A DNA stretch of 64,000 nucleotides, from contig NZ_CP101989.1 of the NCBI RefSeq assembly GCF_024508275.1, positions 1,488,001 to 1,552,000 of the forward strand, given 5' to 3'. The DNA is from Cellulomonas wangsupingiae. GTDB lineage: Bacteria > Actinomycetota > Actinomycetes > Actinomycetales > Cellulomonadaceae. A program made the translations under genes and the position numbers. Of the stretch, positions 19,988-34,929 are shown piece by piece; the first letter of the stretch is position 1; every line of letters begins with the position of its first letter. The notes under the pieces were generated by a model that searched no databases, was not told the DNA's origin, and saw only the letters and a program-made list of their open reading frames with translations.

Positions 19988-20001
19988 TGACAACGCTGTC
20001 A
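19988..20001. promoter_or_regulatory. LacI-type operator O2, upstream of importer operon
   Basis: TGACAACGCTGTCA has perfect TGACA/TGTCA arms. Its centre is 112 bp upstream of the centre of the operator at 20100-20113, so a repression loop between the two is possible. The 358-base gap between the regulator gene and the importer otherwise holds only the promoter and the second operator. Confidence 0.7.
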
Positions 20002-20061: not shown

Positions 20062-20089
20062 TTGACATCCCCGCTCGCGCGACTAACCT
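20062..20089 (+). promoter_or_regulatory. Predicted sigma-70-type promoter of the importer operon
   Basis: TTGACA (20062-20067), a 16-base spacer, then TAACCT (20084-20089). Both hexamers are near consensus. The next operator starts 11 bases after the -10, covering the expected transcription start. Confidence 0.6.
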
Positions 20090-20099
20090 CGGCCACGCA

Positions 20100-20113
20100 T
20101 GACATCGTTGTCA
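20100..20113. promoter_or_regulatory. LacI-type operator O1 at importer transcription start
   Basis: TGACATCGTTGTCA. Perfect TGACA/TGTCA arms around a CG-containing centre. It overlaps the predicted +1 of the promoter at 20062-20089, a position that blocks initiation. Confidence 0.8.
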
Positions 20114-20232
20114 GTCGGAGCGCGAGCCTCACGGACGACGGCCTCGCCCTGGTGGCGGAGGCGTCCTGCGGTCAGTGAAGACCCGAGGGGCCCAGGGATC
20201 GGTGCAGATCCCGGGAAGAGAGGTGACGCGTC

Positions 20233-21156
20233 ATGGTCGGCTATCTCGTACGGCGACTGTTGCTGGCAGTCTTTGTGCTGTGGGGCGTCGCCACCGCGGT
20301 GTTCCTCATCGTCCGGGTCGTCCCTGCCGACCCGGCACTGCTCATCGCTGGTTCGGACGCACCGCCCGAGCAGCTCGACCAGCTGCGGCGTGACCTCGGT
20401 CTCGACCAGTCGATGTTCGTGCAGTACGGCACCTTCCTGGGCAACGCCGTCTCCGGCGACCTGGGCTCGTCGTACGTGCTCAAGGAGCCGGCGGTGACCC
20501 TCATCGGCCAGGTGCTGCCGAACACGGCGCTCCTGGCGCTCCTCGCGTGCGTGCTCGCCATGCTGATCGCCTTCCCGCTCGGCCTGATGGCGGCGCTGCG
20601 GGCCAACCGGCCCCTCGACCGCGTGGTGACCACCGGTTCGCTCTTCACGCAGGCGCTGCCGAACTTCTGGATCGGTGTCGTCCTTCTCCTGGTGTTCTCG
20701 CGCATGCTCAAGTGGTTGCCCAGCGTGGGGCTCGACGGGCCGAAGAGCCTGATCCTGCCGACAATCGTGCTGGCGCTGCCATTCGTCTCGGTCCTCACCC
20801 GCATGATTCGCAACGGGCTGCTCGAGGTGATGAGCGAGAGCTATATCCAGACCGCTCGCGCCAAGGGGTTGTCGGAACGGATCGTGGTCTTCCGCCACGC
20901 CGTCCGGAATGCGGCGATCCCCGTGATCACCATCGTCGGACTGCAGTTCGGGACGCTGCTCGGAGGTGCCGTCGTCACCGAGTCGGTCTTCTCGTTCCCG
21001 GGGATCGGCCGGCTCCTCGTGAGCTCCATCCAGCTGCGTGACTACAACGTCGTGCAGGCGTGCGTGCTCGTGATCGCCGCCGTCTTCGTCATCATCAACC
21101 TCGTCGTGGACCTGCTGTACGGGATCCTCGACCCTCGCGTGAGGCTCGCCAAGTGA
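20233..21156 (+). CDS. Dpp/Opp-type ABC transporter permease, DppB-like
   Basis: 307 residues. It opens MVGYLVRRLLLAVFVLWG as DppB proteins do, has the periplasmic loop VPADPALLIAG and LGLDQSMFVQYGTFLG, and six membrane helices. The EAA loop reads YIQTARAKGLSERIVVFRHA. It pairs with the next gene, the DppC-like permease, whose GTG overlaps this stop. Members import di- and oligopeptides, but many in catabolic loci import oligosaccharides or glycosides. Here the context is sugar or polyol metabolism, and the locus is under a LacI-type regulator. Confidence 0.88.
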   Translation: MVGYLVRRLLLAVFVLWGVATAVFLIVRVVPADPALLIAGSDAPPEQLDQLRRDLGLDQSMFVQYGTFLGNAVSGDLGSSYVLKEPAVTLIGQVLPNTALLALLACVLAMLIAFPLGLMAALRANRPLDRVVTTGSLFTQALPNFWIGVVLLLVFSRMLKWLPSVGLDGPKSLILPTIVLALPFVSVLTRMIRNGLLEVMSESYIQTARAKGLSERIVVFRHAVRNAAIPVITIVGLQFGTLLGGAVVTESVFSFPGIGRLLVSSIQLRDYNVVQACVLVIAAVFVIINLVVDLLYGILDPRVRLAK

Positions 21157-22043
21157 CCGCCGCACCTGTCCTCGCCGTCAACGCGACGATGCGCCGGGCC
21201 CGTCGGGCCCGGCGGGGCGTCAAGATCCGCATCATCGGGCCGCTGGTCGTCATCGGTCTGATCGTGCTCGGCGCCGTCGTCATCCCGCTCGCCTACGACT
21301 TCGACCCGCTGCGCGCGGACCTCATGGCGCGGCTGATGCCCCCCGGGACCGTCATGTCGGACGGCCGCACCGCGCTGCTCGGTACCGACCAGATCGGGTC
21401 GGACCTCTTCGCGCAGATCATGGCCGGTGCCAGGATCTCGCTGCTCGTCGGCGTCGCGACCCTCGCCATCTCCGGGCTGGTCGGGGTGCTGCTCGGTCTG
21501 CTCGCCGGGCACTTCGGCGGGTGGATCGACGCGACGCTCATGCGGATCGCCGACATCCAGCTCGCGTTCCCCTCCATCCTGCTGGCGATCCTCATCGCCT
21601 CGGTGCTCGGTCAGGGCGTCGGCAACATCATCCTCGTGCTGTCGATCTCGAATTGGGTCGTCTTCGCCCGCGTCGCGCGCAGCCAGGTGCTGTCGCTGAA
21701 GAACCGCGAGTACGTCGAGGCCGCCCGGACCCTGGGTGCGGGCAACTGGCACCTGATGTTCCGGACGCTGCTGCCCGGATGCATGGCGCCGGTCATCGTG
21801 GTGGCGACCACGCAGTTCGCCCAGGTGATCCTCACGGAGGCGTCCCTGTCGTTCCTCGGCGTCGGGGTGCCGCTCGGCACGCCGAGCCTGGGCAGCACGA
21901 TCTTCAACGGGACGCAGTACCTGTCGACCGCATGGTGGATCTCCACCCTCCCCGGCGTCGTGCTCGTGATCCTCATGCTCGCCTTCGGGATCCTCGGCGA
22001 CGCCCTCCGCGACAAGTTCGACCCGACGCTCCGGAGCGCCTGA
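21153..22043 (+). CDS. Dpp/Opp-type ABC transporter permease, DppC-like
   Basis: 296 residues starting at the GTG that overlaps the DppB stop (GTGA). An N-terminal helix precedes the conserved GTDQIGSDLFAQIMAGARIS segment, typical of DppC proteins. The EAA loop is YVEAARTLGAGNWHLMFRTLLPG. Near the end LSFLGVGVPLGTPSLGS is also family-specific. It overlaps oppD by TGATG. It forms the membrane channel with the DppB-like partner. Confidence 0.88.
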   Translation: MTAAPVLAVNATMRRARRARRGVKIRIIGPLVVIGLIVLGAVVIPLAYDFDPLRADLMARLMPPGTVMSDGRTALLGTDQIGSDLFAQIMAGARISLLVGVATLAISGLVGVLLGLLAGHFGGWIDATLMRIADIQLAFPSILLAILIASVLGQGVGNIILVLSISNWVVFARVARSQVLSLKNREYVEAARTLGAGNWHLMFRTLLPGCMAPVIVVATTQFAQVILTEASLSFLGVGVPLGTPSLGSTIFNGTQYLSTAWWISTLPGVVLVILMLAFGILGDALRDKFDPTLRSA

Positions 22044-23080
22044 TGACGACGACACAGACGGGCCTCGTCGGCCCCACCTCCGCCACGAGCGGCGCGCCGC
22101 TGCTGAGCGTCGAGAACCTCACGGTGGAGTTCTCCACCGCCGCGGGGGTGGCCCGCGCGCTGGACGGCGTCAGCTTCGAGGTCCGGGCGGGCGAGACGCT
22201 CGCCATCCTCGGCGAGTCCGGCTGCGGCAAGTCGACCACCGCGCAGGCGATCATGGGCCTGCTGCCCAAGCCGGCCGGATCGGTCACGGGAGGCAGGATC
22301 ATGTACGGCGGGCGTGACCTCGCGGCCGAGCCCGTCCGCAAGGTGCGCGAGGTGTGCGGCACCGAGATCGCCATGATCTTCCAGGACCCCCTGAGCTCGC
22401 TGAACCCGGTGTTCCGGGTCGGCGCGCAGGTGGCCGAGCCGTTCCGGCAGCGGCGGGGCATGGGCCGCCAGGAGGCGTGGGCGCGCGCGCTCGAGCTGCT
22501 CAAGCGCGTGGGCATCCCGGACGCGGAGACGCGGATCTCCGACTACCCGCACCAGTTCTCCGGCGGGCAGCGTCAGCGGATCATGATCGCGATGGCGCTC
22601 GCGCTCGGCCCGAAGCTGCTGATCGCCGACGAGCCGACCACCGCGCTGGACGTGACCGTCCAGAAGCAGGTGATGAACCTGCTGGCCGACCTGCAGGCGG
22701 AGACCGGGATGGCGATGGTGCTCGTCAGCCACGACCTCGGTGTCGTCGCGGAGGTCGCCCAGCGGGCCGCCATCATGTACGGGGGCCGGATCGTCGAGAC
22801 CGGCGCGATCCGGGACATGTACGACCACCCGGCGCACCCGTACACCAAGGGCCTGCTGGAGTCGATCCCCGGTGGCCGCGTCGGCAGTCGGCTCAAGCCG
22901 ATCGTCGGGTCGCCACCGAACCTGCTGAACCTGCCGACCGGGTGCGCGTTCAACCCGCGCTGCCCGTTCGCGATCGACCGGTGCCGGGAGCTGGCGCCGA
23001 CGTTGCGCACGCCGCAGGGATGGCCCGCGGGCCACCAGGCCGCGTGCCACCTGTCCGAGGAGGTCCTCACCCATGTCTGA
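22043..23080 (+). CDS. Oligopeptide-type ABC transporter ATPase, OppD-like
   Basis: 345 residues. Walker A GESGCGKSTTAQAIMG, Q-loop MIFQDPLSSLNP, signature FSGGQRQRIMIAMAL, Walker B LLIADEPTTALDVTVQ and LVSHDLGVVAEVA are intact. The C-terminal oligopeptide-transporter extension carries the Cys cluster CAFNPRCPFAIDRC, which in relatives binds an iron-sulfur cluster. The ATG overlaps the DppC stop; its end overlaps oppF by eight bases. Confidence 0.9.
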   Translation: MTTTQTGLVGPTSATSGAPLLSVENLTVEFSTAAGVARALDGVSFEVRAGETLAILGESGCGKSTTAQAIMGLLPKPAGSVTGGRIMYGGRDLAAEPVRKVREVCGTEIAMIFQDPLSSLNPVFRVGAQVAEPFRQRRGMGRQEAWARALELLKRVGIPDAETRISDYPHQFSGGQRQRIMIAMALALGPKLLIADEPTTALDVTVQKQVMNLLADLQAETGMAMVLVSHDLGVVAEVAQRAAIMYGGRIVETGAIRDMYDHPAHPYTKGLLESIPGGRVGSRLKPIVGSPPNLLNLPTGCAFNPRCPFAIDRCRELAPTLRTPQGWPAGHQAACHLSEEVLTHV

Positions 23081-23900
23081 CGCCGGGACCACGCCGCTGT
23101 TGAGCGTCAGGGACCTGAAGGTCGCCTACCCGATCCGCTCGTCGTTCCTGCAGCGCAAGATCGGCGAGAACGTCGCCGTCGACGGCGTCACGTTCGACAT
23201 CCGGCCGGGGGAGACCGTCGGCCTGGTCGGCGAGTCGGGATCCGGCAAGTCGACGGTCGCCCGCGCCGTGATCGGGCTGGTCAGGGCCGACGCGGGCACG
23301 ATCGAGTTCGAGGGGCAGGACATCACCCGCTTCTCCCCGCGGCAGCTCACCGCGGTGCGTCGTGAGATGCAGATGGTGTTCCAGGACCCGTACGCCTCGC
23401 TCAACCCGCGGCTGACGGTCCGGGACGTGATCGCCGAGGCGTGGCGCGTGCACCGCGACGTCGTGCCGCGCGACCGGTGGACGGCCGAGGTGAAGGAGCT
23501 GATGGACCGCGTCGGCCTCAACCCCGACTACAGCGACCGGTACCCCCACCAGTTCTCGGGTGGTCAGCGTCAGCGCATCGGGATCGCACGGGCCCTGGCG
23601 CTGCGGCCCAAGCTGATCATCTGCGACGAGCCGGTCTCGGCCCTGGACGTGTCGGTCCAGGCCCAGGTCCTCAACCTGCTCGACGACCTGCAGGACGACC
23701 TGGGCCTGGCGTACCTGTTCATCTCGCACGACCTGTCGGTCGTCGAGCACCTGTGCGACCGCGTCCTGGTGCTGCACCACGGCGTCGTCGCCGAGGAGGG
23801 CACCGCGCGGGAGGTCTTCGACCATCCCCGCGACGACTACACCCGCGCGCTGCTGGCGGCTGTGCCCGTCGCACGGCCGTGGCTGGAGCCCACCTCCTGA
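23073..23900 (+). CDS. Oligopeptide-type ABC transporter ATPase, OppF-like (short)
   Basis: 275 residues. Walker A GESGSGKSTVARAVIG, MVFQDPYASLNPRLTV, FSGGQRQRIGIARAL and LIICDEPVSALDVSVQ are intact. It lacks the C-terminal oligopeptide-transporter extension with Cys residues that its OppD partner has; the usual length is 310-330. It probably works as the second half of the ATPase heterodimer all the same. A hairpin and an operator separate it from the binding-protein gene. Confidence 0.88.
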   Translation: MSDAGTTPLLSVRDLKVAYPIRSSFLQRKIGENVAVDGVTFDIRPGETVGLVGESGSGKSTVARAVIGLVRADAGTIEFEGQDITRFSPRQLTAVRREMQMVFQDPYASLNPRLTVRDVIAEAWRVHRDVVPRDRWTAEVKELMDRVGLNPDYSDRYPHQFSGGQRQRIGIARALALRPKLIICDEPVSALDVSVQAQVLNLLDDLQDDLGLAYLFISHDLSVVEHLCDRVLVLHHGVVAEEGTAREVFDHPRDDYTRALLAAVPVARPWLEPTS

Positions 23901-23909
23901 CCCCCGCGT

Positions 23910-23941
23910 CGTAGGCCGGGAAGAACGACCCCCGGCCTACG
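23910..23941 (+). terminator. Intercistronic hairpin between oppF and binding-protein gene
   Basis: An 11-bp perfect stem (CGTAGGCCGGG, 23910-23920, with CCCGGCCTACG, 23931-23941) around a 10-base loop. It is followed within 20 bases by a LacI-type operator, so the binding-protein gene may be a separate transcription unit. Confidence 0.6.
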
Positions 23942-23957
23942 AGAGCACCGACCTTGA

Positions 23958-23971
23958 TGACATCGATGTCA
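23958..23971. promoter_or_regulatory. LacI-type operator before the binding-protein gene
   Basis: TGACATCGATGTCA, a perfect 14-bp palindrome and the most symmetric of the four copies. It ends 19 bases before the start ATG. It would control an internal promoter or act as a roadblock to read-through from the permease operon. Confidence 0.8.
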
Positions 23972-23990
23972 ACGATCAAAGGAGATGGCC

Positions 23991-25553
23991 ATGACATCAC
24001 TGCGCGCACGGCGGATGTCCGTCGCCGGAATTGCTGCCGTCCTCGCCCTGGCGCTTGCCGGGTGCGGCGGCTCGAGCGAGAGCAGCGGCGGCGGTGCCGG
24101 GAACGGTGACGCCACACCCGGCGCAGCGCTCCCCGACGACCAGCAGCACCTGACGTACGTCCTCAACTACGGGTGCACGTCGCTGGACCCCACGGAGAAC
24201 TTCGACAACTGCCGCATGCAGGTCGACAGCAACGTCCTGCAGGGCCTGGTCGCGCTGGACGAGGAGTCGCAGCCGCAGCCGCTGCTCGCGAGCTCCTGGG
24301 AGTGGACGGACGACACGACGCTCGTCTTCACGCTGCGCGACGACGTGACGTTCAGCGACGGCACGCCCTTCACCTCGGCGGACGTCGTGGCCACCTTCGA
24401 CCGCTACATCGCGATGCAGTCCGTGCTCGCGACGCAGCTCGCGGTCATCGACACCTACACGGCGAACGACCCGACGACGCTGACGATCACGACGAAGAAC
24501 CCGACCGGCACGCTGCTCGGTGTGCTGTCGATGATCTTCATCGGCAAGGCCGACGGGGTCGCCGACGACGCCTACTGGTCCAAGCCGATCGGCACCGGTC
24601 CGTTCGTCGTGACCGAGTTCGTCACGAACGACCACGTCACGCTCACCCGCAACGACGCCTACTGGGGCGAGCCGGCGAAGCTCAAGACGGTGACCTTCCA
24701 GCAGATCACCGACACCAACGGCAAGGTGACCGCGCTGTCCAACCGCTCGGCCCAGGTGATCGCCGGCGTGCCGGGCGACCAGATCGCGACGGTCGAGAGC
24801 ATGGACGGGGTGCGACTGGAGCAGATCCCCAGCTTCACGTACACGTTCCTGTGGTTCCAGAACAGCCGCGAGCCGTTCACCGACCCGCTGGTGCGCGAGG
24901 CCCTGTGGGCGGCACTCGACCTCGACACGATCGTCACCTCGCTCCTCGGGGAGACCGCCGAGCCGATGACCTCCCTGTGCCCCGAGGCCGCCTTCGGCTG
25001 CCTGCCGGCCTCCGAGGCGCCGTCCTACGACCCGGAGCGCGCCAAGGACCTGCTCGCCGAGGCCGGTTACCCCGACGGGTTCACCACGACGATCGACTAC
25101 AGCACCGCGAACCCGGGCTACGACCAGCTCGTCTCGGCGATGATCTCCTACTGGAAGGAGGTCGGCATCACCGTCGAGCCGAAGTCGGACGACCAGGCCA
25201 CCTTCCTCGCGAACATCGCCAAGCCCGGCAACTACGACATGATCGTCAACTCGAACCTGACGAGCACCGGGGACGCCGACTTCACGCTCAACCGCCTCTA
25301 CACCTGCGCGGCCGACCGCCTCGGGTACTGCAACCCGGACCTCGACGCCCTGCTGGCCAAGGGCCAGCAGACGCTCGATGCCGACGAGCGCCTGTCCGTC
25401 TACCAGGAGATCTCCGACCTCCTCGCGGCGGACGCACCGGCGATCGGGCTGTTCCAGCAGAACACCAACCTGGCGTCGCTGGACACCGTGCAGGGTCTGA
25501 AGCTCGTGCCCAGCGAGAACTACGACTGGAGCACCGTCTACCTCACCGACTAG
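23991..25553 (+). CDS. Extracellular solute-binding lipoprotein, family 5
   Basis: 520 residues. The lipoprotein signal ends ALALAGC with Cys25. The mature protein shows family-5 landmarks: LNYGCTSLDPTENFDNCRMQ, VLQGLVALDEESQPQPLLAS, FSDGTPFTSADVVATFDRY, KPIGTGPFVVTEF and VREALWAALDLD. Family 5 proteins bind peptides, oligosaccharides or opines. AGGAG ends seven bases before the ATG at 23991; the ATG at 23985 abuts that site and is rejected. The strong hairpin at 25567-25601 lies directly after the stop. It delivers the block's substrate to the Dpp/Opp permease. Confidence 0.88.
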   Translation: MTSLRARRMSVAGIAAVLALALAGCGGSSESSGGGAGNGDATPGAALPDDQQHLTYVLNYGCTSLDPTENFDNCRMQVDSNVLQGLVALDEESQPQPLLASSWEWTDDTTLVFTLRDDVTFSDGTPFTSADVVATFDRYIAMQSVLATQLAVIDTYTANDPTTLTITTKNPTGTLLGVLSMIFIGKADGVADDAYWSKPIGTGPFVVTEFVTNDHVTLTRNDAYWGEPAKLKTVTFQQITDTNGKVTALSNRSAQVIAGVPGDQIATVESMDGVRLEQIPSFTYTFLWFQNSREPFTDPLVREALWAALDLDTIVTSLLGETAEPMTSLCPEAAFGCLPASEAPSYDPERAKDLLAEAGYPDGFTTTIDYSTANPGYDQLVSAMISYWKEVGITVEPKSDDQATFLANIAKPGNYDMIVNSNLTSTGDADFTLNRLYTCAADRLGYCNPDLDALLAKGQQTLDADERLSVYQEISDLLAADAPAIGLFQQNTNLASLDTVQGLKLVPSENYDWSTVYLTD

Positions 25554-25566
25554 GTCGGGACGCGGA

Positions 25567-25601
25567 CGTGGGGACGGCCGGCCCGGCCGGCCGTCCCCAC
25601 G
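25567..25601 (+). terminator. Strong hairpin after the binding-protein gene
   Basis: Near-perfect 17-bp stem, CGTGGGGACGGCCGGCC (25567-25583) with its complement (25585-25601), which leaves a single unpaired C at the centre, so the innermost pairs must open. Such hairpins after binding-protein genes commonly protect that message or attenuate read-through into the enzymes that follow. Confidence 0.7.
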
Positions 25602-25651
25602 CACCGCGGACCGCAGCGCCCACCGGTAGGTCGAGCAAAGGACAGTTCAGC

Positions 25652-27016
25652 GTGTTCGTGCGAGAGCCCGAGCGTCAGGTTCCCGTCGTCGCGAGCTACG
25701 ACGTCATCGTGTGCGGGGGCGGTCCGGCCGGCCTCGTCGCGGCGACGGCCGCGGCCCGCAACGGGGCAAGGACGCTCCTCATCGAGCGGTACGGGTTCGT
25801 CGGTGGCATGTCGACGAGCGCGCTCGTGACACCGATCAGCGAGTTCCGCCACTACGGCAAGCAGCACATCGGGGGGATCCCCTTCGAGCTCATGGCCATG
25901 GCCGCCGAGCTGGGCGGGGCCGAGATCACGCGGGAGAGCGGGAACTACCCGGTCAACGACGAGATCCTCAAGCTCGCCGCGCAGCGCCTGCTGCTCGACA
26001 GCGGCGTGACCCTGCTGTACCACTCGTGGTTCTCCGACTGCGTGACGCAGGACGGCCGGGTGACGCACGTGATCGTGCAGAACAAGGCCGGCCGCGTCGC
26101 GTACGAGGGCAAGGTCTTCATCGACTGCACGGGCGACGCCGACCTGGTGCGCGCGGCCGGCTTCGAGACGGTCAAGGGCGACGTGCTGCAGCCGGCCTCG
26201 TTGTGGTTCCAGCTCGGAGGGGTCGACACCGACGCCCTGGAGTACCTCTTCGGCGACGCGGTCGACGCGATGCTGCCCGTGTCGGCGGTGATCCGGGACC
26301 GGTTGACCGAGCTGCACGAGCAGGGCGTCATCCCGATCTTCGGTGGACCGTGGATCAACCGGTTCTTCCACGACGGCATGGTCAGCATCAACCTGCTGCG
26401 CGAGGCGACCGACGCGAGCGACCCCGAGTGGTTCACCCGCACCGAGTGCAGCCTGCGGGAGGCGCTGCACCTGGTCATCGACGTGCTGCGCGAGAACTTC
26501 CCCGAGTTCCGGGACTGCTGGCTGGCGAAGTCGGGCATCCAGACCGGGGTCCGCGAGACGTATCACATCGTCGGCGAGTACACGCTGCTCAAGGACGACA
26601 TCGTCACGCCCAAGGCGTTCCCCGACACGATCGCCAAGGGCGCCCACGTCATCGACATCCACGCCGCGGACAGCACCGAGCAGAACGACATGGTGATCCC
26701 GCGGCAGGAGTACAACGTGCCGTTCCGCTGCCTGGTCCCGAAGGGCAGCGTCAACCTCGTCACCGCCGGGCGCTGCCTCAGCGCCGACGGTCCCGGGTTC
26801 GGCTCCGTGCGCGTCATGGCGACGTGCATGGCCATGGGACAGGGCGCGGGGACGGCCGCCGCGCTGAGCATCGCGCACGGGTTCGGCATGACCGACATGG
26901 ACCACGAGCTGCTGCGCGCGACGCTCGCGGCGCAGGGCGCCGTCGTCGACCACGACAACACCGTCAACCCCGGGGCGCCCGTCGACGTGACGGTCTACCC
27001 GGGCGTCCGGAAATGA
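25652..27016 (+). CDS. FAD-dependent oxidoreductase (FAD_oxidored family), substrate unknown
   Basis: 454 residues. The dinucleotide-binding fold starts at residue 18: VIVCGGGPAGLVAATAAARNG, then RTLLIERYGFVGGMSTSALV, the signature of the FAD_oxidored family. A second FAD contact is CTGDADLVRAAGFE, and LVTAGRCLSADGPGFGSVRV near residue 370 closes the FAD site. The family is frequent in uncharacterised carbohydrate loci. The GTG at 25652 follows AAAGGA and gives a normal N-terminus. No signal peptide, so it acts in the cytosol on imported material. Oxidation of a sugar or polyol moiety is inferred from neighbours only. Confidence 0.8.
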   Translation: MFVREPERQVPVVASYDVIVCGGGPAGLVAATAAARNGARTLLIERYGFVGGMSTSALVTPISEFRHYGKQHIGGIPFELMAMAAELGGAEITRESGNYPVNDEILKLAAQRLLLDSGVTLLYHSWFSDCVTQDGRVTHVIVQNKAGRVAYEGKVFIDCTGDADLVRAAGFETVKGDVLQPASLWFQLGGVDTDALEYLFGDAVDAMLPVSAVIRDRLTELHEQGVIPIFGGPWINRFFHDGMVSINLLREATDASDPEWFTRTECSLREALHLVIDVLRENFPEFRDCWLAKSGIQTGVRETYHIVGEYTLLKDDIVTPKAFPDTIAKGAHVIDIHAADSTEQNDMVIPRQEYNVPFRCLVPKGSVNLVTAGRCLSADGPGFGSVRVMATCMAMGQGAGTAAALSIAHGFGMTDMDHELLRATLAAQGAVVDHDNTVNPGAPVDVTVYPGVRK

Positions 27017-27036
27017 CCAAGGAGAGAGAGATTTCG

Positions 27037-27966
27037 ATGCAGAAGTTCCTCAGCTACGACCGCGGGCTGGAGCGGTTCAACCCGCTCGCGCGGGTCATCT
27101 GCTACGACGACTTCGACACGGGGTTCAACGGCTGGCTCGACCTCACGCCGAACTACGTCGAGGAGAACTACGAGTCGTTCGACTCGGTCGTCGACCTGTC
27201 GAGCTGGGCCCCCAACCAGCTGAGCTCGGCCTCGATGCGCTTCGCGTCGTCGCACGGCTCGATGGAGGGCACGTACTCGCTGAAGATCACGACGGCGCCG
27301 ACGGGCGGCCCGCACACCGAGCCGCCGCGCAACGGCTCGATGGGCCACGCGATCAAGCGGCTGTCGCGCTTCGGCAACCCCAAGCTCATCCAGATCGAGG
27401 CCTGGTACTCCTACACCCCCGTGCAGGACCGGGAGGGCAAGGGCGAGGAGGACATCCGCGCGATCGGGTTCTTCTTCGACGTCCAGGACTCCGAGTACCG
27501 CTACATGCCGGGCGTGCGGTACGTGAACTCCCTCGGCGGCAAGCTCGTCAAGAAGTGGCAGTACTACCAGGTCTCCGAGGGCGTCACCCCCGAGGACTGG
27601 AACTTCGGCGTCAAGGACGGCTGGTGCGTGCCCGGCGTCGACAACCAGTGGTACGGCCGGCGGTTCGAGGACGGCTCCGGCGACGGCTACCAGTGGCTGC
27701 CCGGGGGCGAGCAGGAGCTCGTCTACAACGAGAGCCCCGACAAGATCAACTGGATGTACTTCCGCCTGACCGTCGACATCGAGAAGCGCGAGTACGTCGA
27801 GATGCAGAGCGGCGACCAGGTGTTCGACATGCGGGGCATCAAGCCGACCCTCACCGAGGGCTACGCCTCGATCGACAACCTCATCAACCCCATCTTCTTC
27901 ATCGAGACCGACTCCGAGCGCTCGGTCAACCTCTACCTCGACTCCGTCGTGTACTCGGTCGAGTGA
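27037..27966 (+). CDS. Uncharacterised intracellular beta-rich protein, large member of duplicated pair (copy 1)
   Basis: 309 residues with no signal peptide or membrane helix. I do not recognise a function; it may be the family catalogued as DUF6772, a name recalled and not checked. Aromatic, strand-rich segments (FNGWLDLTPNYVEENY; GSMEGTYSLKIT; IEAWYSYTP; RYVNSLGGKLVKKWQYYQV; LVYNESPDKINWMYFRL; LYLDSVVYS) suggest a jelly-roll or lectin-like sandwich. A clearly homologous protein is encoded at 33363-34304. ATG 27037 follows GGAGAGAGAG; ATG 27013 overlapping the FAD gene stop is the alternative. A small partner gene follows at 28002. Confidence 0.8.
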   Translation: MQKFLSYDRGLERFNPLARVICYDDFDTGFNGWLDLTPNYVEENYESFDSVVDLSSWAPNQLSSASMRFASSHGSMEGTYSLKITTAPTGGPHTEPPRNGSMGHAIKRLSRFGNPKLIQIEAWYSYTPVQDREGKGEEDIRAIGFFFDVQDSEYRYMPGVRYVNSLGGKLVKKWQYYQVSEGVTPEDWNFGVKDGWCVPGVDNQWYGRRFEDGSGDGYQWLPGGEQELVYNESPDKINWMYFRLTVDIEKREYVEMQSGDQVFDMRGIKPTLTEGYASIDNLINPIFFIETDSERSVNLYLDSVVYSVE

Positions 27967-28001
27967 CGACGCACCCCTGACGACACCTGAGAGACGACAA
28001 C

Positions 28002-28325
28002 ATGCAGACGACGAACACCTCCGTCATCGCACGGCGGGTCAAGATCTCCGACGCCCACGCGACACTTCCCTACGAGGCGGGCTGGGCCACCGAGGCGGTC
28101 ATCTTCGTGCAGGCCGAGGGGGACCACCCCGACCTGGCGATCGCCGTCGAGGTCTCGCCCGACGGCATCACCTGGGTCCGGCGCGCCGGTGCGACGCTCG
28201 CGGCCTCGCAGCAGCTCGTCGACGTGCCCGTGGCGCAGTTCGGCAACTGGCTCCGGGTCGTGATCACCGGTGCGACGAGCGAGCAGCCCGCGCGGGTGCT
28301 CGTCCACCTCAACCTCAAGGGCTGA
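28002..28325 (+). CDS. Uncharacterised small protein, partner of duplicated pair (copy 1)
   Basis: 107 residues, no signal peptide. It may be the family catalogued as DUF6385 (unchecked). The sequence alternates short strands: LPYEAGWATEAVIFVQAEG, HPDLAIAVEVSPDGITWVRR, FGNWLRVVITGAT, RVLVHLNLKG, which predicts a small beta-sandwich. The paralogue at 33024-33350 shares PYEA.WA.EA, VSPDG..W and the C-terminal LKG. In both copies the small gene directly follows the large one, so the two proteins probably form one complex. It lies seven bases before the dehydrogenase gene. Confidence 0.78.
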   Translation: MQTTNTSVIARRVKISDAHATLPYEAGWATEAVIFVQAEGDHPDLAIAVEVSPDGITWVRRAGATLAASQQLVDVPVAQFGNWLRVVITGATSEQPARVLVHLNLKG

Positions 28326-28331
28326 GCGGAC

Positions 28332-29798
28332 ATGGAACGACTGGGAGTGCGGGCGCTCGAGACCCTTCCGTCGCACGTGGACGTCCCGGGGTACCTCGGT
28401 GACGACCTGCGGATCGGGATCGTCCACTTCGGGGTGGGGAACTTCCACCGTTCCCATCAGGCGATGTACGTCGACCGGCTGCTCGAGGCGGGCGCCGGGG
28501 ACGACTGGGCCATCTGCGGTGTCGGCCTGCTGGAACGGGACGCACCCATGCGCGACGCGCTCGCCGCGCAGGACTGCCTGTTCACGCTCACGCTGCGCGA
28601 GCCGGACGGCCAGAACCGGTTCAGCGTCATCGGGTCGATCCGGCGCTACCTCTACGCGCCGGACGACCCGGCGGCCGTGCTGGACCAGCTCGTGTCGCCC
28701 GACGTCCGCATCGTGTCGCTCACGGTCACCGAGGGCGGGTACGTCAGCGACCCGACGAACGGTCGGGTGCCGCAGGACGACCCGCTGGTCGCCGAGGAGG
28801 TCGCGGACGGGTTCGCCCACCCGCGCACGGCGTTCGGCTGGATCGTCGCCGCGCTGCGTGAGCGCCGCAGGCGGGGGATCGCCCCGTTCACCGTGATGTC
28901 GTGCGACAACATCCAGGGCAACGGCCGTGTCGCCCGGGCGAGCGTCGAGGGCGTGGCGCGGCTGGCGGACCCCGAGCTGGCCGACTGGATCGGCGCCGAG
29001 GTGGCGTTCCCGTCCACGATGGTCGACCGGATCACGCCGGCGACCACGCAGGCGGACGTGGACCGGGTCGCGACGCGGCTCGGGGTCGAGGACCTCTGGC
29101 CGGTGGCCAGCGAGCCCTTCACGCAGTGGGTGATCGAGGACGTGTTCGCTGCCGGTCGACCGCCGTTCGAGCAGGTCGGCGCGTTGCTGGTGTCGGACAT
29201 CGACCCCTACGAGGCCATCAAGCTGCGGCTGCTCAACGGGTCGCACCAGGCGCTCGCGTACATCGGCCAGCTGGCGGGCTACACGTACGTGCACGACGCG
29301 GTGGCAGATCCTCGGATCGCCGCGTACGTGCGGGCGTACATGGAGCGTGAGGGTGCTCCGACGCTCGAGGTGCCCGCGGGGTTCGACCTCCCGGCGTACG
29401 TCGACGAGCTGTTCGTCCGCTTCGGCAACCCGCACGTCCAGGACCTCCTGGCGCGGCTGTCCGTGGACGCGTCCAACCGGATCCCGAAGTTCGTGGTCCC
29501 CGTGCTCGTCGACCGGGTGGCGGCGGGTGCGGCGTGCGAGGTCGGTGCCGCGATCCTCGCGACCTGGCGCGCGTGGTGCCGTGGCGTCGGCGAGGGGCGC
29601 TTCGTGATCGACGACGTGGACGGCGAGGCGCTCGTCGCGGCGGCCGCGGACGAGCCCCTCGGCTTCCTGCGGGGGGTCCCGACGCTCACCGGGTTCCTCG
29701 ACGCACCCGGCTTCGTGGAGGCGTACCTGCGGGCCGCCGACGCGCTCGAGCGCGACGGGGTCGAGGCGTTCTTCGAGGCCGTCCTGGCGGGGGAGTAG
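28332..29798 (+). CDS. Mannitol dehydrogenase-family oxidoreductase
   Basis: 488 residues, the usual length of polyol-specific long-chain dehydrogenases. The NAD-binding start IGIVHFGVGNFHRSHQAMYV, the PSTMVDRITPAT motif and the catalytic KLRLLNGSHQ (Lys, Asn, His) are present. Relatives interconvert mannitol and fructose, altronate and tagaturonate, or mannonate and fructuronate. With the fructokinase-like PfkB gene four bases downstream, a hexitol-to-fructose reaction is the simplest reading, but a sugar acid is equally possible. Confidence 0.88.
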   Translation: MERLGVRALETLPSHVDVPGYLGDDLRIGIVHFGVGNFHRSHQAMYVDRLLEAGAGDDWAICGVGLLERDAPMRDALAAQDCLFTLTLREPDGQNRFSVIGSIRRYLYAPDDPAAVLDQLVSPDVRIVSLTVTEGGYVSDPTNGRVPQDDPLVAEEVADGFAHPRTAFGWIVAALRERRRRGIAPFTVMSCDNIQGNGRVARASVEGVARLADPELADWIGAEVAFPSTMVDRITPATTQADVDRVATRLGVEDLWPVASEPFTQWVIEDVFAAGRPPFEQVGALLVSDIDPYEAIKLRLLNGSHQALAYIGQLAGYTYVHDAVADPRIAAYVRAYMEREGAPTLEVPAGFDLPAYVDELFVRFGNPHVQDLLARLSVDASNRIPKFVVPVLVDRVAAGAACEVGAAILATWRAWCRGVGEGRFVIDDVDGEALVAAAADEPLGFLRGVPTLTGFLDAPGFVEAYLRAADALERDGVEAFFEAVLAGE

Positions 29799-29801
29799 CA
29801 C

Positions 29802-30746
29802 GTGGTGTCCAACGGTTCACCGATCCCCGGGCTGGCGAAGTCGGTCTTCGTCGTCGGCGAGGCGCTCGTCGACGTGACGGTCGACGTGAACGGCGTCGAG
29901 CACCGTCAGCCCGGGGGCAGCCCGATGAACGTCGCGTTCGGGCTGGCGCGCCTCGGCGTGCCGACGCGGCTCATGAGCTGGGTCGGGGACGACGCCGACG
30001 GGCGGCTCGTCGCGGCTCACCTGAGGTCGGCCGGGGTCAAGCTCGACGACGTGACGGTGGCGCCCCGGACGGCGACGTCCACGGCACGCGCGACGCTCGA
30101 CGCAGCCGGTGCGGCGACGTACGCGTTCGACCTGCGGTGGGACCTGCCGGACGGGGGCGTCCCGCCCGAGTGCACGGTCATCCACACGGGCTCGATCGCC
30201 GCCGTGCTCCCGCCGGGTGCCGATCGTGTGCTCGACCTGTACCGCTCGGCGGCCCCCGAGGTGATCCGCTCGTTCGACCCCAACGTCCGTCCGGCCATCA
30301 CGCCGGACCGCGCGGCGGTGCTCGAGCGGGTCGAGTGGTTCGTCGACCGGACCGACGTCCTCAAGCTGAGCGACGAGGACGCGGCCTGGCTCCACCCCGG
30401 CGAGGACGAGGCGTTCGTCACCGACTGGGCGCTGGGCCGCGGCGTCAAGCTCTTCGTCATGACGCGGGGTGCGCACGGCTGCACCGTCGCCACGCCGTCG
30501 CACCGGCTGGAGCAGCCGGCCATCCCCACGGAGGTGGTCGACACCATCGGTGCGGGAGACGCGTTCATGTCGGGGCTGCTGGCCGGGTTGTCCCGGTGGG
30601 GCCTGTTCGACGCCCTGCGCCGCGACGGCGTCGGAGCCGGTGACCTCAGCAGGCTCGCGGGGCTCGCCACCCGCACGGCGTCGCTGACGGTCGCCCAGGT
30701 CGGTGCGCAGCCGCCGACCTGGACGCAGGTCCGCACGGCCGCCTGA
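29802..30746 (+). CDS. PfkB-family sugar kinase (fructokinase-like)
   Basis: 314 residues. Both PfkB signatures are visible: N-terminal GGSPMNVAFGLARLGVPTRL and C-terminal DTIGAGDAFMSGLLAG with the catalytic Asp. DPNVRPAITPD and LKLSDEDAAWL are typical of fructokinases and 2-keto-3-deoxygluconate kinases. The GTG at 29802 is three bases after the dehydrogenase stop, so they are co-translated. It likely phosphorylates the ketose or keto-acid produced by the preceding enzyme and sends it to glycolysis. Confidence 0.88.
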   Translation: MVSNGSPIPGLAKSVFVVGEALVDVTVDVNGVEHRQPGGSPMNVAFGLARLGVPTRLMSWVGDDADGRLVAAHLRSAGVKLDDVTVAPRTATSTARATLDAAGAATYAFDLRWDLPDGGVPPECTVIHTGSIAAVLPPGADRVLDLYRSAAPEVIRSFDPNVRPAITPDRAAVLERVEWFVDRTDVLKLSDEDAAWLHPGEDEAFVTDWALGRGVKLFVMTRGAHGCTVATPSHRLEQPAIPTEVVDTIGAGDAFMSGLLAGLSRWGLFDALRRDGVGAGDLSRLAGLATRTASLTVAQVGAQPPTWTQVRTAA

Positions 30747-30750
30747 CGGC

Positions 30751-30789
30751 AGGCCGCACCGTGGTCCGCGCCGGACCGCGGTGCGGCCT
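30751..30789. terminator. Bidirectional terminator after the kinase gene
   Basis: Stem AGGCCGCACCG (30751-30761) with CGGTGCGGCCT (30779-30789), plus an inner GGTCC/GGACC. It overlaps the stop region of the convergent AraC gene. Confidence 0.7.
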
Positions 30790-31705
30790 ACGGCCGTGCC
30801 GCGGTGCGGTACTCGCGCGGTGTGACGCCGTACGCCCGGCGGAACTGCCGGTTGAAGTTGGAGAGGTTGGCGTAGCCGACGGCGCCCGCGACGGCCGCGA
30901 CCGGGTCCCGGGTCGTCTCGAGCAGGCGGCACGCCTGCGTCAGGCGCAGGCGACGGACCATGTCGGTGAACGTCTGCCCGCTGCCCGCCTTGAACTGGCG
31001 TGAGAAGGCGGAGTCGCTCATCGCGGCCTGCCGGGCCGCGTCGTGCAGGCGCACCCCGGTCGCCAGGTTCTCGAGGATGTGGTCGATCGCGCGGCTGATC
31101 AGCTCCGAGTCGGCGCCCTCGACGTCGGCGCGCCACGACTGCACGACGAGGCGCTGGTCGCCCGGCGGGGAGCCGGCCAGCACGCGCAGCAGGTCGAGGA
31201 CGCGCACGACGCGGTCCATCCCGGGCTCGGCGTCGCGGACCGCGAGCATGGCCGCCGCGCCTGTCGTCGCCGAGGCGCCGCGGAACTCGATGCCGTGGGC
31301 GGACCGGGCGAGCAGCGGGTCCAGTGCCCGCAGCTCGGGGACGGCCGCCTGGCACCCCCGTACCCACGCGTCGCTGAAGTGCAGCACGGCGTGGGTGTCC
31401 GCGAGCGAGCCGCCGTCGGCGTCGGCGTCGGCGATCCAGTGGTGCGGCAGGTCGGGGCCGACGAGCACGAGCTGGCCGGCGTCGTAGGCCCCGACGACGT
31501 CGCCGATCACGTACCGGCCGCTGGTGCGCAGGATCAGGTGGACCTCGTACTCCGGGTGGTAGTGCCAGCCCGCGTACGGGTGCGGCTCCTCGTGCACGTA
31601 GAACCGGAACGACGCGACGGGGTCCGACGCGATCACTTCGCGGACGGCCCGGCGGCGCAGTGTGCGCGCGGCGCGTGACTCCAGGGCGGTGGCGACGTCC
31701 GTCAT
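30788..31705 (-). CDS. AraC-family transcriptional regulator
   Basis: 305 residues. The N-terminal cupin domain has GWHYHPEYEVHLILRTSGRY and ADTHAVLHFSD. The C-terminal double helix-turn-helix has ATGVRLHDAARQAAMSDSAF, RQFKAGSGQTF and FNRQFRRAYGVTPREYR, the AraC signature. Start ATG 31705. It is divergent from the zinc dehydrogenase gene, with 177 bases between, so it probably controls that gene and perhaps the kinase end of the block. Confidence 0.88.
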   Translation of the reverse strand: MTDVATALESRAARTLRRRAVREVIASDPVASFRFYVHEEPHPYAGWHYHPEYEVHLILRTSGRYVIGDVVGAYDAGQLVLVGPDLPHHWIADADADGGSLADTHAVLHFSDAWVRGCQAAVPELRALDPLLARSAHGIEFRGASATTGAAAMLAVRDAEPGMDRVVRVLDLLRVLAGSPPGDQRLVVQSWRADVEGADSELISRAIDHILENLATGVRLHDAARQAAMSDSAFSRQFKAGSGQTFTDMVRRLRLTQACRLLETTRDPVAAVAGAVGYANLSNFNRQFRRAYGVTPREYRTAARP

Positions 31706-31882
31706 GGTGCGATTGTGCGCGCCGTCGCCCCGTACGTTCGGCAAGACATGCCCACGACGCGCATGAGAGTACCGGTATCAGGCGCCGGACGGTGATGTGC
31801 GCGCGTCGTCGTGCCGCGAGCATGGGACGCCAAGGCTCTCCCCGTGGCCGGGGACGGGCGTCACAGCGAGAACGGGGTCCCG

Positions 31883-32926
31883 ATGAGCGCGACGATGCGC
31901 CAGGTGAAGGTCGCAGGTCTGGACGAGGTGACGGTGGTGGACTCCCGGGTCCCCGAGGCGGGCCCGGGTCAGGTGCGGGTCGAGGTCGCCCTGGCGGGCA
32001 TCTGCGGCTCGGACACGCACGCGGTCGCCGGCCACCACCCGCTGCTGCCGCCGCCCTACCTGCCGGGTCACGAGCTGGTGGGGACCGTCGAGGCGGTGGG
32101 CGCCGGCGGTGACGGCGGGCTCGTCGGCGCGCGCGTCGTCGTCAAGCCGAACGTCGACTGCGGCGAGTGCGTCAACTGCCGCGCAGGGCGCAGCAACGCC
32201 TGCCAGACGCTGCAGTGGATCGGGTGCGACCCCTCCGGTGCGCTGCCCGGCGGCATGGCCCGCTACGTGGTCGTCCCGGAGCGCAACGTCTTCCCGGTGC
32301 CCGACGAGGTCAGCGACGTGGACGCCGTCCTGGTCGAGTGCCTCGCGACGCCGGTCCACGCCGCGCGCATCGCGGGGGACCTGACCGGTGCGCGGGTCGT
32401 CGTCATCGGCGCGGGGACCATCGGGCTGCTCTCGGTCGTGGCGGCGCGCCGCGCGGGTGCGGGCGTGGTCGTCGTGTCCGACCCCGTGCCCGCCAAGCGC
32501 GACCGGGCGCTGGGCCTCGGCGCGGACGCGACCGTCGACGCGGTGTCGCCCGACTTCACGGCCTCGGTGCACGCGGCGCTCGGCGGACCCGCGGACGTCG
32601 TCTTCGACTGCGTCGGCATCGAGGCGTCGATCCGTCAGGCGGTCGGGGTGCTGCGGCGCGCGGGCACGCTGCTGATCGTGGGCGTGCCGCCGCGTGACGG
32701 CGTGGTGCCGCTGCCGCTGTTCCAGGACTGGGAGCTGCGCGTCCAGGGCTGTGCCAACTACACGCCGCAGGACATCGAGGTCGCGATCGCGATCGCCGCG
32801 GACGGCGGCCTGCCGGGCGACGAGATCGTCAGCGCGACCTACGGGGTCGAGGAGGCCGCGCAGGCCTTCGCGGCCGCCGCGCTGGGGACCGCCGGCAAGG
32901 TGGTCATCGCACCCGCGTCCTCCTGA
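31883..32926 (+). CDS. Zinc-dependent alcohol/polyol dehydrogenase (MDR superfamily)
   Basis: 347 residues. Catalytic zinc site: GICGSDTHAV (Cys) and LPGHELVGTVEAVG (His, Glu). Structural zinc: CGECVNCRAGRSNAC with four Cys. NAD-binding GAGTIGLLSVVAARRAG. Sorbitol-, threonine- and galactitol-dehydrogenase-like. The context supports oxidation of a secondary alcohol on a sugar or polyol. ATG 31883 is preferred; ATG 31895 is possible. Transcribed divergently from the AraC regulator. Confidence 0.87.
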   Translation: MSATMRQVKVAGLDEVTVVDSRVPEAGPGQVRVEVALAGICGSDTHAVAGHHPLLPPPYLPGHELVGTVEAVGAGGDGGLVGARVVVKPNVDCGECVNCRAGRSNACQTLQWIGCDPSGALPGGMARYVVVPERNVFPVPDEVSDVDAVLVECLATPVHAARIAGDLTGARVVVIGAGTIGLLSVVAARRAGAGVVVVSDPVPAKRDRALGLGADATVDAVSPDFTASVHAALGGPADVVFDCVGIEASIRQAVGVLRRAGTLLIVGVPPRDGVVPLPLFQDWELRVQGCANYTPQDIEVAIAIAADGGLPGDEIVSATYGVEEAAQAFAAAALGTAGKVVIAPASS

Positions 32927-32935
32927 CGAGGACAG

Positions 32936-32960
32936 CCCCGGGCGCCGACGGCGCCCGGGG
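32936..32960. terminator. First of two tandem hairpins
   Basis: Perfect 11-bp stem, CCCCGGGCGCC and GGCGCCCGGGG, with GAC as loop. It lies ten bases after the dehydrogenase stop. Confidence 0.7.
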
Positions 32961-32968
32961 CACACCCA

Positions 32969-33002
32969 CAGGGGCCGTCCCGCCGTAGCGGGACGGCCCC
33001 TG
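32969..33002. terminator. Second tandem hairpin, bidirectional
   Basis: Perfect 15-bp stem, CAGGGGCCGTCCCGC with its complement, around CGTA. It separates the dehydrogenase from the convergent small gene at 33024. Two hairpins in tandem give strong insulation in both directions. Confidence 0.75.
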
Positions 33003-33023
33003 TGTCGCGCGCGGGCGCTCGCG

Positions 33024-33350
33024 TCAGCCCTTGAGCTCCAGGCGGACCAGCACGGTGGCCGGCTCCTGCGGCGTGGCGCCGGTCAGGAGCAGGCGGACCC
33101 ACGTGCCGAACCGGACCATGTCGACGTCGACCAGGTCGCGGTCGGCCGGGAGGGTGACGGGCGCGCCGCGGTCGAGCCAGTCGACGCCGTCGGGGGAGAC
33201 CTGCGGCTGGATCGTCAGGGCCGGGTGAGGGCCCTCGGTGCGCACGAAGAACAGCGCCTCGGACGCCCAGGCGGCCTCGTAGGGGTGGGTGCCGTACTCG
33301 GTGGTGAGGACGGTGCGGCGCTCGACGAGCGTGGTGGCAGAGGTCAGCAT
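33024..33350 (-). CDS. Uncharacterised small protein, partner of duplicated pair (copy 2)
   Basis: 108 residues, paralogous to the protein at 28002-28325. Shared blocks: PYEAAWASEALFFV, EGPHPALTI, VSPDGVDWLDRG, RDLVDVDMVRFGTWVRLLLT and VLVRLELKG. No signal peptide, no Cys, strand-rich. Its gene starts 12 bases after the stop of the large partner, as in copy 1. Function unknown; the conserved pairing argues for a two-subunit protein. Confidence 0.78.
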   Translation of the reverse strand: MLTSATTLVERRTVLTTEYGTHPYEAAWASEALFFVRTEGPHPALTIQPQVSPDGVDWLDRGAPVTLPADRDLVDVDMVRFGTWVRLLLTGATPQEPATVLVRLELKG

Positions 33351-33362
33351 CGTCGTCTCCTC

Positions 33363-34304
33363 TCAGGCCTGGGGCTCGCGGCCCGTCGAGTACACGACGG
33401 AGTCCAGGTACATGAAGACACGGCGGTCCGTGTCGGTCTCGATGAAGAAGACGGGGTTGATGAGGCCCGTGATGCCGTCGTACGGCGGTGCGGGCGTCGT
33501 CGCCGTGCCCCGCAGGTCGAACGTGCGGCCCATGCTCTGGAACTCGACGTACTCGCGCCGGTCGAGGTCGACCAGCAGGCGCATGTACAGCCAGTTGAGC
33601 TTGTCGGGACTCTCGTTGTAGACGAGCTTCTGCTCGCCGTCGGGAACCCACTGGAACCCGTCCGCCGAGCCGTCGGCGTAGCGCTGCCCGCACCAGATGG
33701 CGTCGATGCCGGGGGCCTCCCAGCCCTCGGGGCTGCCGGTCCACTGCTCGCGGGTGACGCCGTCGGCGACCTGGAAGTACTGCCAGCGCTTGACCTTCGT
33801 CCCGTTCACCGAGTTGACGTAGCGGATGCCCGGCTGCCAGCGGTGGGTCTCGTCCTGCACGTCGAACCACAGGCCGAACGCGCGGATGTCCTCCTCGCCG
33901 GTGCCCCAGCGGTCCTGCTCGGGGGTGTAGGAGTACCAGGCCTCGAGCTGGATGTAGCGGTGGTCGTCGTCGAGCTTCGACAGGCGCTTGATGACGGTGC
34001 TCATGGCACCCTCGGCAGGCGGCTGCTCGTACTCGCGCGCGGTGGGCCGCGTGGCGAGCTTCAGGGAGTAGTTGCCCTCCATCGAGCCGTGGCCGGCGGC
34101 GAACCGCATCGGTGCCGCGCTGATCATCGACGGCCCCCAGGAGCCGAGGTCGAGCTGCGACGGCTGGGACTGGAAGCCCGGACGGACGAAGTTCGGGGTG
34201 AGGTCGAGCCAGCCGTTGAAGCCGCGGTCGAAGTCGTCGTGGACCAAGACCTTCTCGAGCGGACGGAACTTCTCGAGCCCGCGCTCGTGGACCATCAGCG
34301 CCAT
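33363..34304 (-). CDS. Uncharacterised intracellular beta-rich protein, large member of duplicated pair (copy 2)
   Basis: 313 residues, homologous along its full length to the protein at 27037-27966, by eye about half identical. Fully conserved between the two: FNGWLDLTPN, HGSMEG, LEAWYSYTP or IEAWYSYTP, GEEDIRA, FDVQD, LVYNESPDK, FFIETD and YLDSVVYS. Conserved acids and aromatics (Glu-Glu-Asp of GEEDIRA; Asn-Glu of YNESPDK) are candidate active-site or metal residues. ATG 34304 follows AAGGAG by nine bases; ATG 34322 overlaps that site and is rejected. Its promoter carries a LacI-type operator. Confidence 0.8.
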   Translation of the reverse strand: MALMVHERGLEKFRPLEKVLVHDDFDRGFNGWLDLTPNFVRPGFQSQPSQLDLGSWGPSMISAAPMRFAAGHGSMEGNYSLKLATRPTAREYEQPPAEGAMSTVIKRLSKLDDDHRYIQLEAWYSYTPEQDRWGTGEEDIRAFGLWFDVQDETHRWQPGIRYVNSVNGTKVKRWQYFQVADGVTREQWTGSPEGWEAPGIDAIWCGQRYADGSADGFQWVPDGEQKLVYNESPDKLNWLYMRLLVDLDRREYVEFQSMGRTFDLRGTATTPAPPYDGITGLINPVFFIETDTDRRVFMYLDSVVYSTGREPQA

Positions 34305-34340
34305 TGCCAGGGTCTCCTTCATAAATGGATGTGCTTCGGG

Positions 34341-34370
34341 ACGGTAGTGAGCGATTGACAACGATGTCAA
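34341..34370 (-). promoter_or_regulatory. Predicted promoter of the copy-2 pair
   Basis: Read on the minus strand: TTGACA (34370-34365), an 18-base spacer, TACCGT (34346-34341). The -35 hexamer lies inside the LacI-type operator at 34356-34369. Confidence 0.55.
34356..34369. promoter_or_regulatory. LacI-type operator before the copy-2 pair
   Basis: TGACAACGATGTCA has the same TGACA/TGTCA arms and CG-containing centre as the three sites at 19988, 20100 and 23958. It ties the inverted second gene pair to the importer regulon. Confidence 0.8.
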
Positions 34371-34855: not shown

Positions 34856-34929
34856 TGGAGCGGACGACGGGAATCGAACCCGCGTAGCCAGTTTGGAAGA
34901 CTGGGGCTCTACCATTGAGCTACGTCCGC
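34856..34929 (-). tRNA. tRNA-Gly (anticodon TCC)
   Basis: 74 bases including an encoded CCA. Acceptor GCGGACG pairs with CGTCCGC. Anticodon stem CCAGT/ACTGG encloses CTTCCAA, giving TCC. T loop GGTTCGATTCC, discriminator T. The 3' end abuts a glycosyltransferase remnant, the classic position of integrase attachment sites. Confidence 0.95.

Follow-up and report, generated by a model that had tools for sequence, protein, structure and literature searches.

In a 64,000-nucleotide stretch of the Cellulomonas wangsupingiae genome (contig NZ_CP101989.1, positions 1,488,001 to 1,552,000; hereafter the window), two copies of a gene pair encode proteins of the families DUF6772 and DUF6385, and members of these two families are found paired in four bacterial phyla and down to sequence identities of about 30%, an association which is reported here for the first time. 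The direct evidence covers the pairing, its genetic context, a shared operator sequence, predicted folds and sequence constraint. On this basis, we give an even chance to the reading that DUF6772 and DUF6385 form an intracellular two-subunit carbohydrate-processing unit, with the one-operator regulon and the division between copies that are proposed below.

Pairing of DUF6772 and DUF6385

The two pairs of the window are as follows.

27037..27966, plus strand: DUF6772, copy A (309 amino acids; PF20562, E 1.6e-92)
28002..28325, plus strand: DUF6385, copy A (107 amino acids; PF19912, E 1.1e-6)
33363..34304, minus strand: DUF6772, copy B (313 amino acids; PF20562, E 3.1e-96)
33024..33350, minus strand: DUF6385, copy B (108 amino acids; PF19912, E 2.9e-7)

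An alternative in-frame ATG for DUF6772 of copy A lies at 27013. The initial annotation of this DNA had described a duplicated two-gene unit, and both pairs were recovered with its coordinates and strands. Its tentative family names were also right, since a Pfam domain search scored above the cut-offs for both copies: 310.3 (copy A) and 322.4 bits (copy B) for PF20562, against a gathering cut-off of 27, spanning model positions 2-283 and 4-283 of 284, and 29.1 (copy A) and 30.9 bits (copy B) for PF19912, a narrow margin over the cut-off of 26.8, spanning model positions 8-79 and 8-76 of 82. Only PF20562 matched DUF6772 in hmmscan at E ≤ 0.01. The two DUF6772 proteins share 58% identity over 306 aligned positions (E 2e-136; 71% at the DNA level) and the DUF6385 proteins 50% over 108 positions (E 7e-39; 65% at the DNA level), values which exclude a chance likeness of the copies, and no third copy of either gene was found in this genome at E ≤ 0.001. 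None of the four proteins has a hydrophobic N-terminus, which bears out the earlier observation that signal peptides are absent.

The annotation had also stated that no function was described for the pair, and neither the family names nor the accessions PF20562 and PF19912 occur in the papers of the PMC library that was searched, a search with subscription journals and other names outside its scope; nor did any title listed there for oxidases together with keto-glycosides concern this subject. Pfam records the two families separately and gives no function for either; both window copies fit its models, and the family names hold nothing of the pairing, the sub-types or the divergent DUF6385 proteins missed by the Pfam model. 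Sequence searches yielded no credible relatives of solved structure, the best E values being 0.47 and 1.5 for DUF6772 and 0.49 for DUF6385.

Profile searches were carried out on 61 sources, comprising 33 contig loci, 20 regions of other genomes, five plasmid records (of seven records with a match in the plasmid collection), two further loci and the window. They yielded 72 DUF6772 stretches, 70 of which are followed on the same strand by DUF6385, while the other two (L029 and L035) are cut by contig ends. When six duplicates are removed, all 64 distinct complete DUF6772 genes are paired with a downstream DUF6385 gene on the same strand, the gap between them being 8-53 nt in 61 pairs; in the other three (L008, L009 and L028) the gap is about 1.4 kb and is taken up by a gene for a flavin adenine dinucleotide (FAD) oxidoreductase. 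No lone DUF6385 gene was present in the 61 sources, which were gathered via DUF6772, and DUF6385 without DUF6772 was checked for in a sample of 297 genomes of the order. There, the Pfam DUF6385 model matched eight genomes, all of them among the 14 that carry DUF6772, and the remaining six of the 14 have a DUF6385 partner which the model misses.

According to the record titles, the pairs occur in Actinomycetota, Pseudomonadota, Chloroflexota and Acidobacteriota, the last two represented by one metagenome-assembled genome each. The most distant DUF6772 proteins are 29-34% identical to that of copy A and their partners are confirmed by profile at E 1.8e-26 or better (search space 1000). The distribution is sparse: counting the centre genomes, DUF6772 was found in 1 of 396 genomes at the level of the phylum, 14 of 297 in the order, 1 of 295 in the order of a Superficieibacter genome and 3 of 385 in the class of a Sphingomonas genome. 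The Superficieibacter pair has no DNA match in E. coli. One of the records, an 11.85-Mb Nonomuraea sequence (L076, NZ_LT559118.1), is labelled a plasmid in PLSDB and is probably a chromosome.

Genetic context and a shared operator

An importer gene lies within 10 kb of all 62 pairs for which context was counted, and an importer together with a recognised LacI, GntR or AraC regulator near 59 of them; this count leaves out two of the 64 pairs (L079 and L080) and uses queries drawn from the same loci. The three pairs lacking a regulator (L020, L027 and L033) retain the importer. For comparison, random positions in the window's genome have an ATP-binding cassette (ABC) permease within 10 kb in 16.9% of cases, a LacI gene in 12.0% and both in 5.6%, a control confined to one genome and to LacI and ABC permeases and thus narrower than the query set. 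Importer types vary and include Dpp-type ABC, CUT1-type ABC, MHS symporter and tripartite ATP-independent periplasmic (TRAP) systems.

In the window, copy A is part of a long run of genes, and the cluster contains the following features besides the pairs.

18834..19874, plus strand: LacI-family regulator, probable regulator of the cluster (PF00356 match at 18867-18998; start codon read from the sequence)
19988..20001: LacI-type operator TGACAACGCTGTCA (one mismatch), before the permease
20100..20113: LacI-type operator TGACATCGTTGTCA, before the permease
20233..21156, plus strand: Dpp/Opp-type ABC permease
21153..22043, plus strand: Dpp/Opp-type ABC permease
22043..23900, plus strand: two ABC ATPase genes (22043-23080 and 23073-23900; open frames named by Walker-type sequences, not by family scan)
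23958..23971: LacI-type operator TGACATCGATGTCA (perfect palindrome), before the binding protein
23985..25553, plus strand: solute-binding protein SBP_bac_5 (PF00496, E 3.1e-85; lipoprotein-like N-terminus)
25652..27016, plus strand: FAD_oxidored (PF12831) oxidoreductase (E 1.6e-106 at 25700-26926)
28332..29798, plus strand: mannitol-2-dehydrogenase-like protein (best solved relative PDB 1lj8, E 6.4e-120; Pfam Mannitol_dh)
29802..30746, plus strand: PfkB sugar kinase, fructokinase-like (123.5 bits to fructokinase, below the 450-bit equivalog cut-off)
30788..31705, minus strand: AraC-family regulator (an upstream start at 31744 is possible)
31883..32926, plus strand: Zn-dependent polyol/alcohol dehydrogenase
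32935-32961 and 32968-33003: two GC-rich inverted repeats, possible terminator between convergent genes
34356..34369: LacI-type operator TGACAACGATGTCA, upstream of copy B

Promoter comparison revealed a LacI-type palindrome, TGACAWCGWTGTCA, that is common to the promoter regions of the cluster. Allowing up to one mismatch, it occurs at four sites in the window against 0.03 expected and at five in the 4.12-Mb genome, four of these five lying in this cluster, while a reversed control pattern gave no sites genome-wide. In Cellulomonas timonensis and Micromonospora rubida two like sites, with one or two mismatches, precede the same permease gene and they are spaced by 112 and 113 bp, respectively, against 112 bp here. 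The copy B genes of those two genomes have no upstream site at up to two mismatches in a scan that demanded a central CG, so it is in this genome alone that copy B is linked to the operator. The presence of one operator sequence before both the importer genes and copy B suggests that the two copies probably belong to one regulon, and the adjacent LacI protein would be the factor that binds these sites.

Because the LacI gene, the Dpp-type importer and the FAD oxidoreductase gene all lie upstream of copy A, the earlier description of the pairs as bracketing a catabolic block was too narrow, and the unit extends over approximately 18834-34369. A known function for the FAD oxidoreductase was sought among solved structures, and the 60 PDB matches listed all fall in its FAD-binding N-terminal part. 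Copy B converges with the Zn-dependent dehydrogenase gene and the inverted repeats between them, which lack a T run, were not called by the terminator scan. Together, the mannitol 2-dehydrogenase, fructokinase and AraC regulator genes resemble known mannitol operons. The whole cluster is flanked by genes for tRNA-Pro (17199-17273) and tRNA-Gly (34856-34929), and six listed genomes of the same genus gave no DUF6772 match; the cluster may therefore be an island bounded by the tRNA genes.

Elsewhere, the contexts differ between lineages. Loci of Jiangella and Microlunatus encode a sialidase-like protein with an N-terminus that, judged by eye, resembles a twin-arginine translocation (Tat) signal in four of four cases; beta-helix proteins are found in Jiangella, Microlunatus, Actinophytocola and Prauserella loci (Tat-like N-terminus in five of nine frames), and a glycoside hydrolase family 13 (GH13) enzyme in two Actinophytocola loci and one Prauserella locus. 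In Jiangella, a Dpp-type importer also lies beside the pair. On four alphaproteobacterial plasmids the pair is accompanied by a FadR/GntR regulator, an MR/MLE protein, sugar-importer genes and an SDR-type protein, and a metagenome-assembled genome of the Bifidobacteriaceae combines a GntR regulator, the pair, a neuraminate-lyase-like gene and a Dpp-type importer. What these contexts share is that a carbohydrate or sugar acid is taken up, and no one substrate suits them all. An N-acetylneuraminate-lyase-like gene beside the pair in L037 and a weak neuraminidase match in L024 (46.9 bits against a cut-off of 900) come from different lineages and are too thin a basis for a sialic-acid substrate. 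Difructose-anhydride/GH172 and levoglucosan routes were dropped, no gene of such a route being found among the neighbours scanned.

Two further observations concern these loci. In the Jiangella locus L024 (8302-9948 and 16678-20429) the pair is surrounded by the sialidase-like protein with its Tat-like export signal and by two beta-helix proteins, and the region is perhaps an uncharacterised polysaccharide-utilisation locus. Moreover, in ten loci (L008, L009, L010, L028, L045, L050, L053, L054, L061 and L063) the pair and a Dpp-type importer occur together with histidine-phosphatase genes and genes that are weakly EEP-like, and L009 has an additional GDPD-like gene at 12630-13694; these three kinds of gene, with Microbacterium among the carriers, hint at a phosphodiester-linked substrate.

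Predicted folds, conserved residues and family history

The predicted model of DUF6772 is mostly beta, with a concanavalin-A (ConA)-like sandwich over most of the chain, and that of DUF6385 is a small jelly roll. Lectin carbohydrate-recognition domains are the best fold matches of DUF6772, and chains of ConA-fold glycoside hydrolase or polysaccharide lyase type (6kzk, 3gne, 3w9a and 9xlc) are also among them. Since the ConA-like fold is common to enzymes and non-enzymatic lectins, it does not decide the function.

Twenty-five DUF6772 residues are invariant over 59 aligned rows, 58 of them distinct, and there is a strongly conserved polar set comprising D24, K83, R108, E121, D148, R155, R161, N164, N231, E232, K236, N238, W239, Y241 and D247. 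The alignments of 54 and 59 rows each hold one duplicate (L052 = L018), while alignments A1 and A2 comprise 47 of 120 listed proteins and 46 proteins, respectively, each with the two window copies. Among the motifs singled out in the initial annotation, YNESPDK contributes the invariant N231, E232 and K236 and FDVQD the invariant D148, whereas GEEDIRA is lost in divergent types.

Trees of 42 pairs place the window copies in different clades, each beside a counterpart from C. timonensis and M. rubida, with support of 100/96 for the copy A trio; the copy B trio is supported at 92/87 by DUF6772 and at 100/99 by DUF6385. This arrangement rules out a recent tandem duplication. A third and far more distant type (about 33% identity) stands beside type A in seven loci (L007-L011, L013 and L028). 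Judged from these trees, copies A and B are old paralogues, the separate clades and the third type pointing to an old, diversified family of which two types have been kept side by side. In comparison with C. timonensis, DUF6772 of copy A has the lowest dN/dS (0.06) among eight genes, the others ranging from 0.13 to 0.26. A mirror-tree comparison of DUF6772 and DUF6385 gave r 0.918, equalled in 0 of 2000 permutations, a correlation that could arise from joint inheritance as well as from interaction.

In one subclade of type A, a FAD_oxidored gene adjoins the pair in nine of nine loci, although that of L010 is only 35% identical. Its sister subclade has no adjacent FAD gene in nine loci, three of them shorter than 17 kb, and in one, L019, a 25%-identical FAD relative lies 8.7 kb away; CUT1-type importer genes are present in all nine and an esterase gene in eight. 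The FAD gene adjoins the pair in one subclade, and in three loci lies between its genes, but its lack of adjacency in the sister subclade means that it cannot be a general partner.

Proposed function and alternative explanations

The intracellular carbohydrate-processing complex suggested earlier is partly supported by the missing signal peptides, the invariable pairing, the constant proximity of importers, the carbohydrate-type fold of DUF6772 and the FAD oxidoreductase gene beside the pair in one subclade. From the evidence assembled here we infer binding of the operators by the LacI protein, physical association of the two proteins, catalysis, bond cleavage, the kind of substrate and a division of labour between the copies. 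In the mechanism that we propose, the LacI regulator would control Dpp-type ABC import and both copies through the one operator. The imported carbohydrate would probably be a glycoside or other bonded sugar derivative, perhaps acidic in several lineages, and after uptake the pair would break a bond in it and render it usable. DUF6772, with its ConA-like beta-sandwich and conserved polar set, would be the substrate-handling and probably catalytic subunit, and DUF6385 the small jelly-roll partner which stabilises or oligomerises it. Copy A may work with the FAD oxidoreductase, the released hexitol or ketose moiety passing to the mannitol-dehydrogenase-like, fructokinase-like and Zn-dehydrogenase enzymes, while copy B, the old paralogue, may serve a second linkage or substrate form.

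The lectin matches also fit a non-enzymatic role, in which DUF6772 would be a cytoplasmic lectin-like sugar binder and DUF6385 its oligomerising base, the two together sensing a ligand, buffering sugar or scaffolding the enzymes nearby. YesU of Bacillus subtilis (PDB 1oq1), 9% identical to DUF6772, is not known to have a DUF6385 partner. This ConA/galectin-like protein is reported to bind fucosylated glycans (PMC6120924), and the constancy of the pair amid varying accessory enzymes also favours such a role. However, most pairs already have a recognised regulator nearby, and the invariant set is, in our judgement, too rich in charge and too widely spread over the chain for a usual lectin site. 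Moreover, L030 keeps a regulator, the pair and an MHS transporter with no catabolic enzyme among the five neighbours scanned (a scan that did not cover every frame), an argument limited by L032, which has a HAD-type hydrolase nearby. We regard the non-enzymatic role as rather unlikely.

A two-step oxidative cleavage, in which the FAD oxidoreductase makes a keto-glycoside and the pair cleaves it, as in 3-keto-glycoside routes, would be a special case of the proposed carbohydrate-processing unit and is suggested by the FAD gene adjoining or interrupting the pair in one type A subclade. DUF1080 has a ConA-like fold, and the C-glycoside deglycosidases CarB/CarC and DgpB/DgpC are two-subunit cleaving enzymes that act after a sugar oxidase, with a TIM barrel as the large subunit of CarB and DgpB. 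Precedent comes from the DUF1080 (PF06439) keto-glycoside hydrolases, such as BT2157 and CCNA_01705, which act with sugar oxidases (PMC9007349) and, like the present pair, occur in sugar catabolic loci with an oxidoreductase; in the accessible part of that source CCNA_01705 is proposed to be periplasmic and a DUF6385-like partner is not mentioned. Unlike these enzymes, DUF6772 has no sequence match to PF06439 (hmmscan, E ≤ 0.01), and unlike the TIM barrel of the C-glycoside deglycosidases, its predicted model is a ConA-like sandwich and that of DUF6385 a jelly roll, CarC being absent from the 50 structural matches listed for DUF6385, an absence which does not exclude likeness. The nine loci of the sister subclade also speak against this route, as does the finding of FAD relatives in only 9 of 52 loci at the thresholds of the context count, and as an account of the pair it is quite unlikely. 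Slightly less likely still, in our estimate, is that the pair acts as, for example, an isomerase, lactonase or dehydratase on a free or lactonised sugar acid and not on a glycosidic bond. GntR/FCD regulators, MR/MLE proteins, TRAP and MHS transporters of organic-acid type and a neuraminate-lyase-like gene in several lineages would suit such a role, but against it stand the exported polysaccharide-type proteins or GH13 encoded in Jiangella, Microlunatus and Actinophytocola loci and the polyol-type enzymes of the window.

The pair is a promising candidate for a sugar-processing enzyme of two parts that has so far gone undiscovered. Two families of unknown function are joined into a single module open to testing, with a constant partner, probable regulator, operator and importer, in which the operator and the adjacent binding protein offer direct handles, through inducer and ligand, on what the substrate is. 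Should the pair prove to be an enzyme, it may add a carbohydrate-active enzyme family and explain uptake loci without a recognised hydrolase, known so far from four phyla. In a bolder and, we think, unlikely version, the pair would represent a carbohydrate-active enzyme class of its own with two subunits, a cytoplasmic multimer with a ConA-fold catalytic chain on a phage-cement-like jelly-roll hub; it would cleave sugar derivatives after their import and, in one lineage, after their activation by a dedicated FAD oxidase. If true, it would be a hidden catabolic entry point in loci lacking a recognised glycosidase.

Two minor observations may be added. In its predicted model DUF6385 of copy B, a metabolic partner protein, shares its jelly roll with phage cement/XepA and spore-pilus proteins; the C-domain of XepA and YomS (Bacillus prophages) and the subunits of the Bacillus endospore (Ena) pilus are 6-9% identical to DUF6385, and, unlike it, XepA/YomS, Ena and phage cement are phage or spore-surface proteins. 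A phage origin of DUF6385 was considered and rejected, as no phage record matches copy B at E ≤ 0.1. Apart from the cluster, this genome has a single near-full-length FAD_oxidored match, within a few kb of a LacI gene and two ABC permease genes (genome positions 3301494-3308155), and this region is perhaps a second oxidative sugar locus, one without DUF6772.

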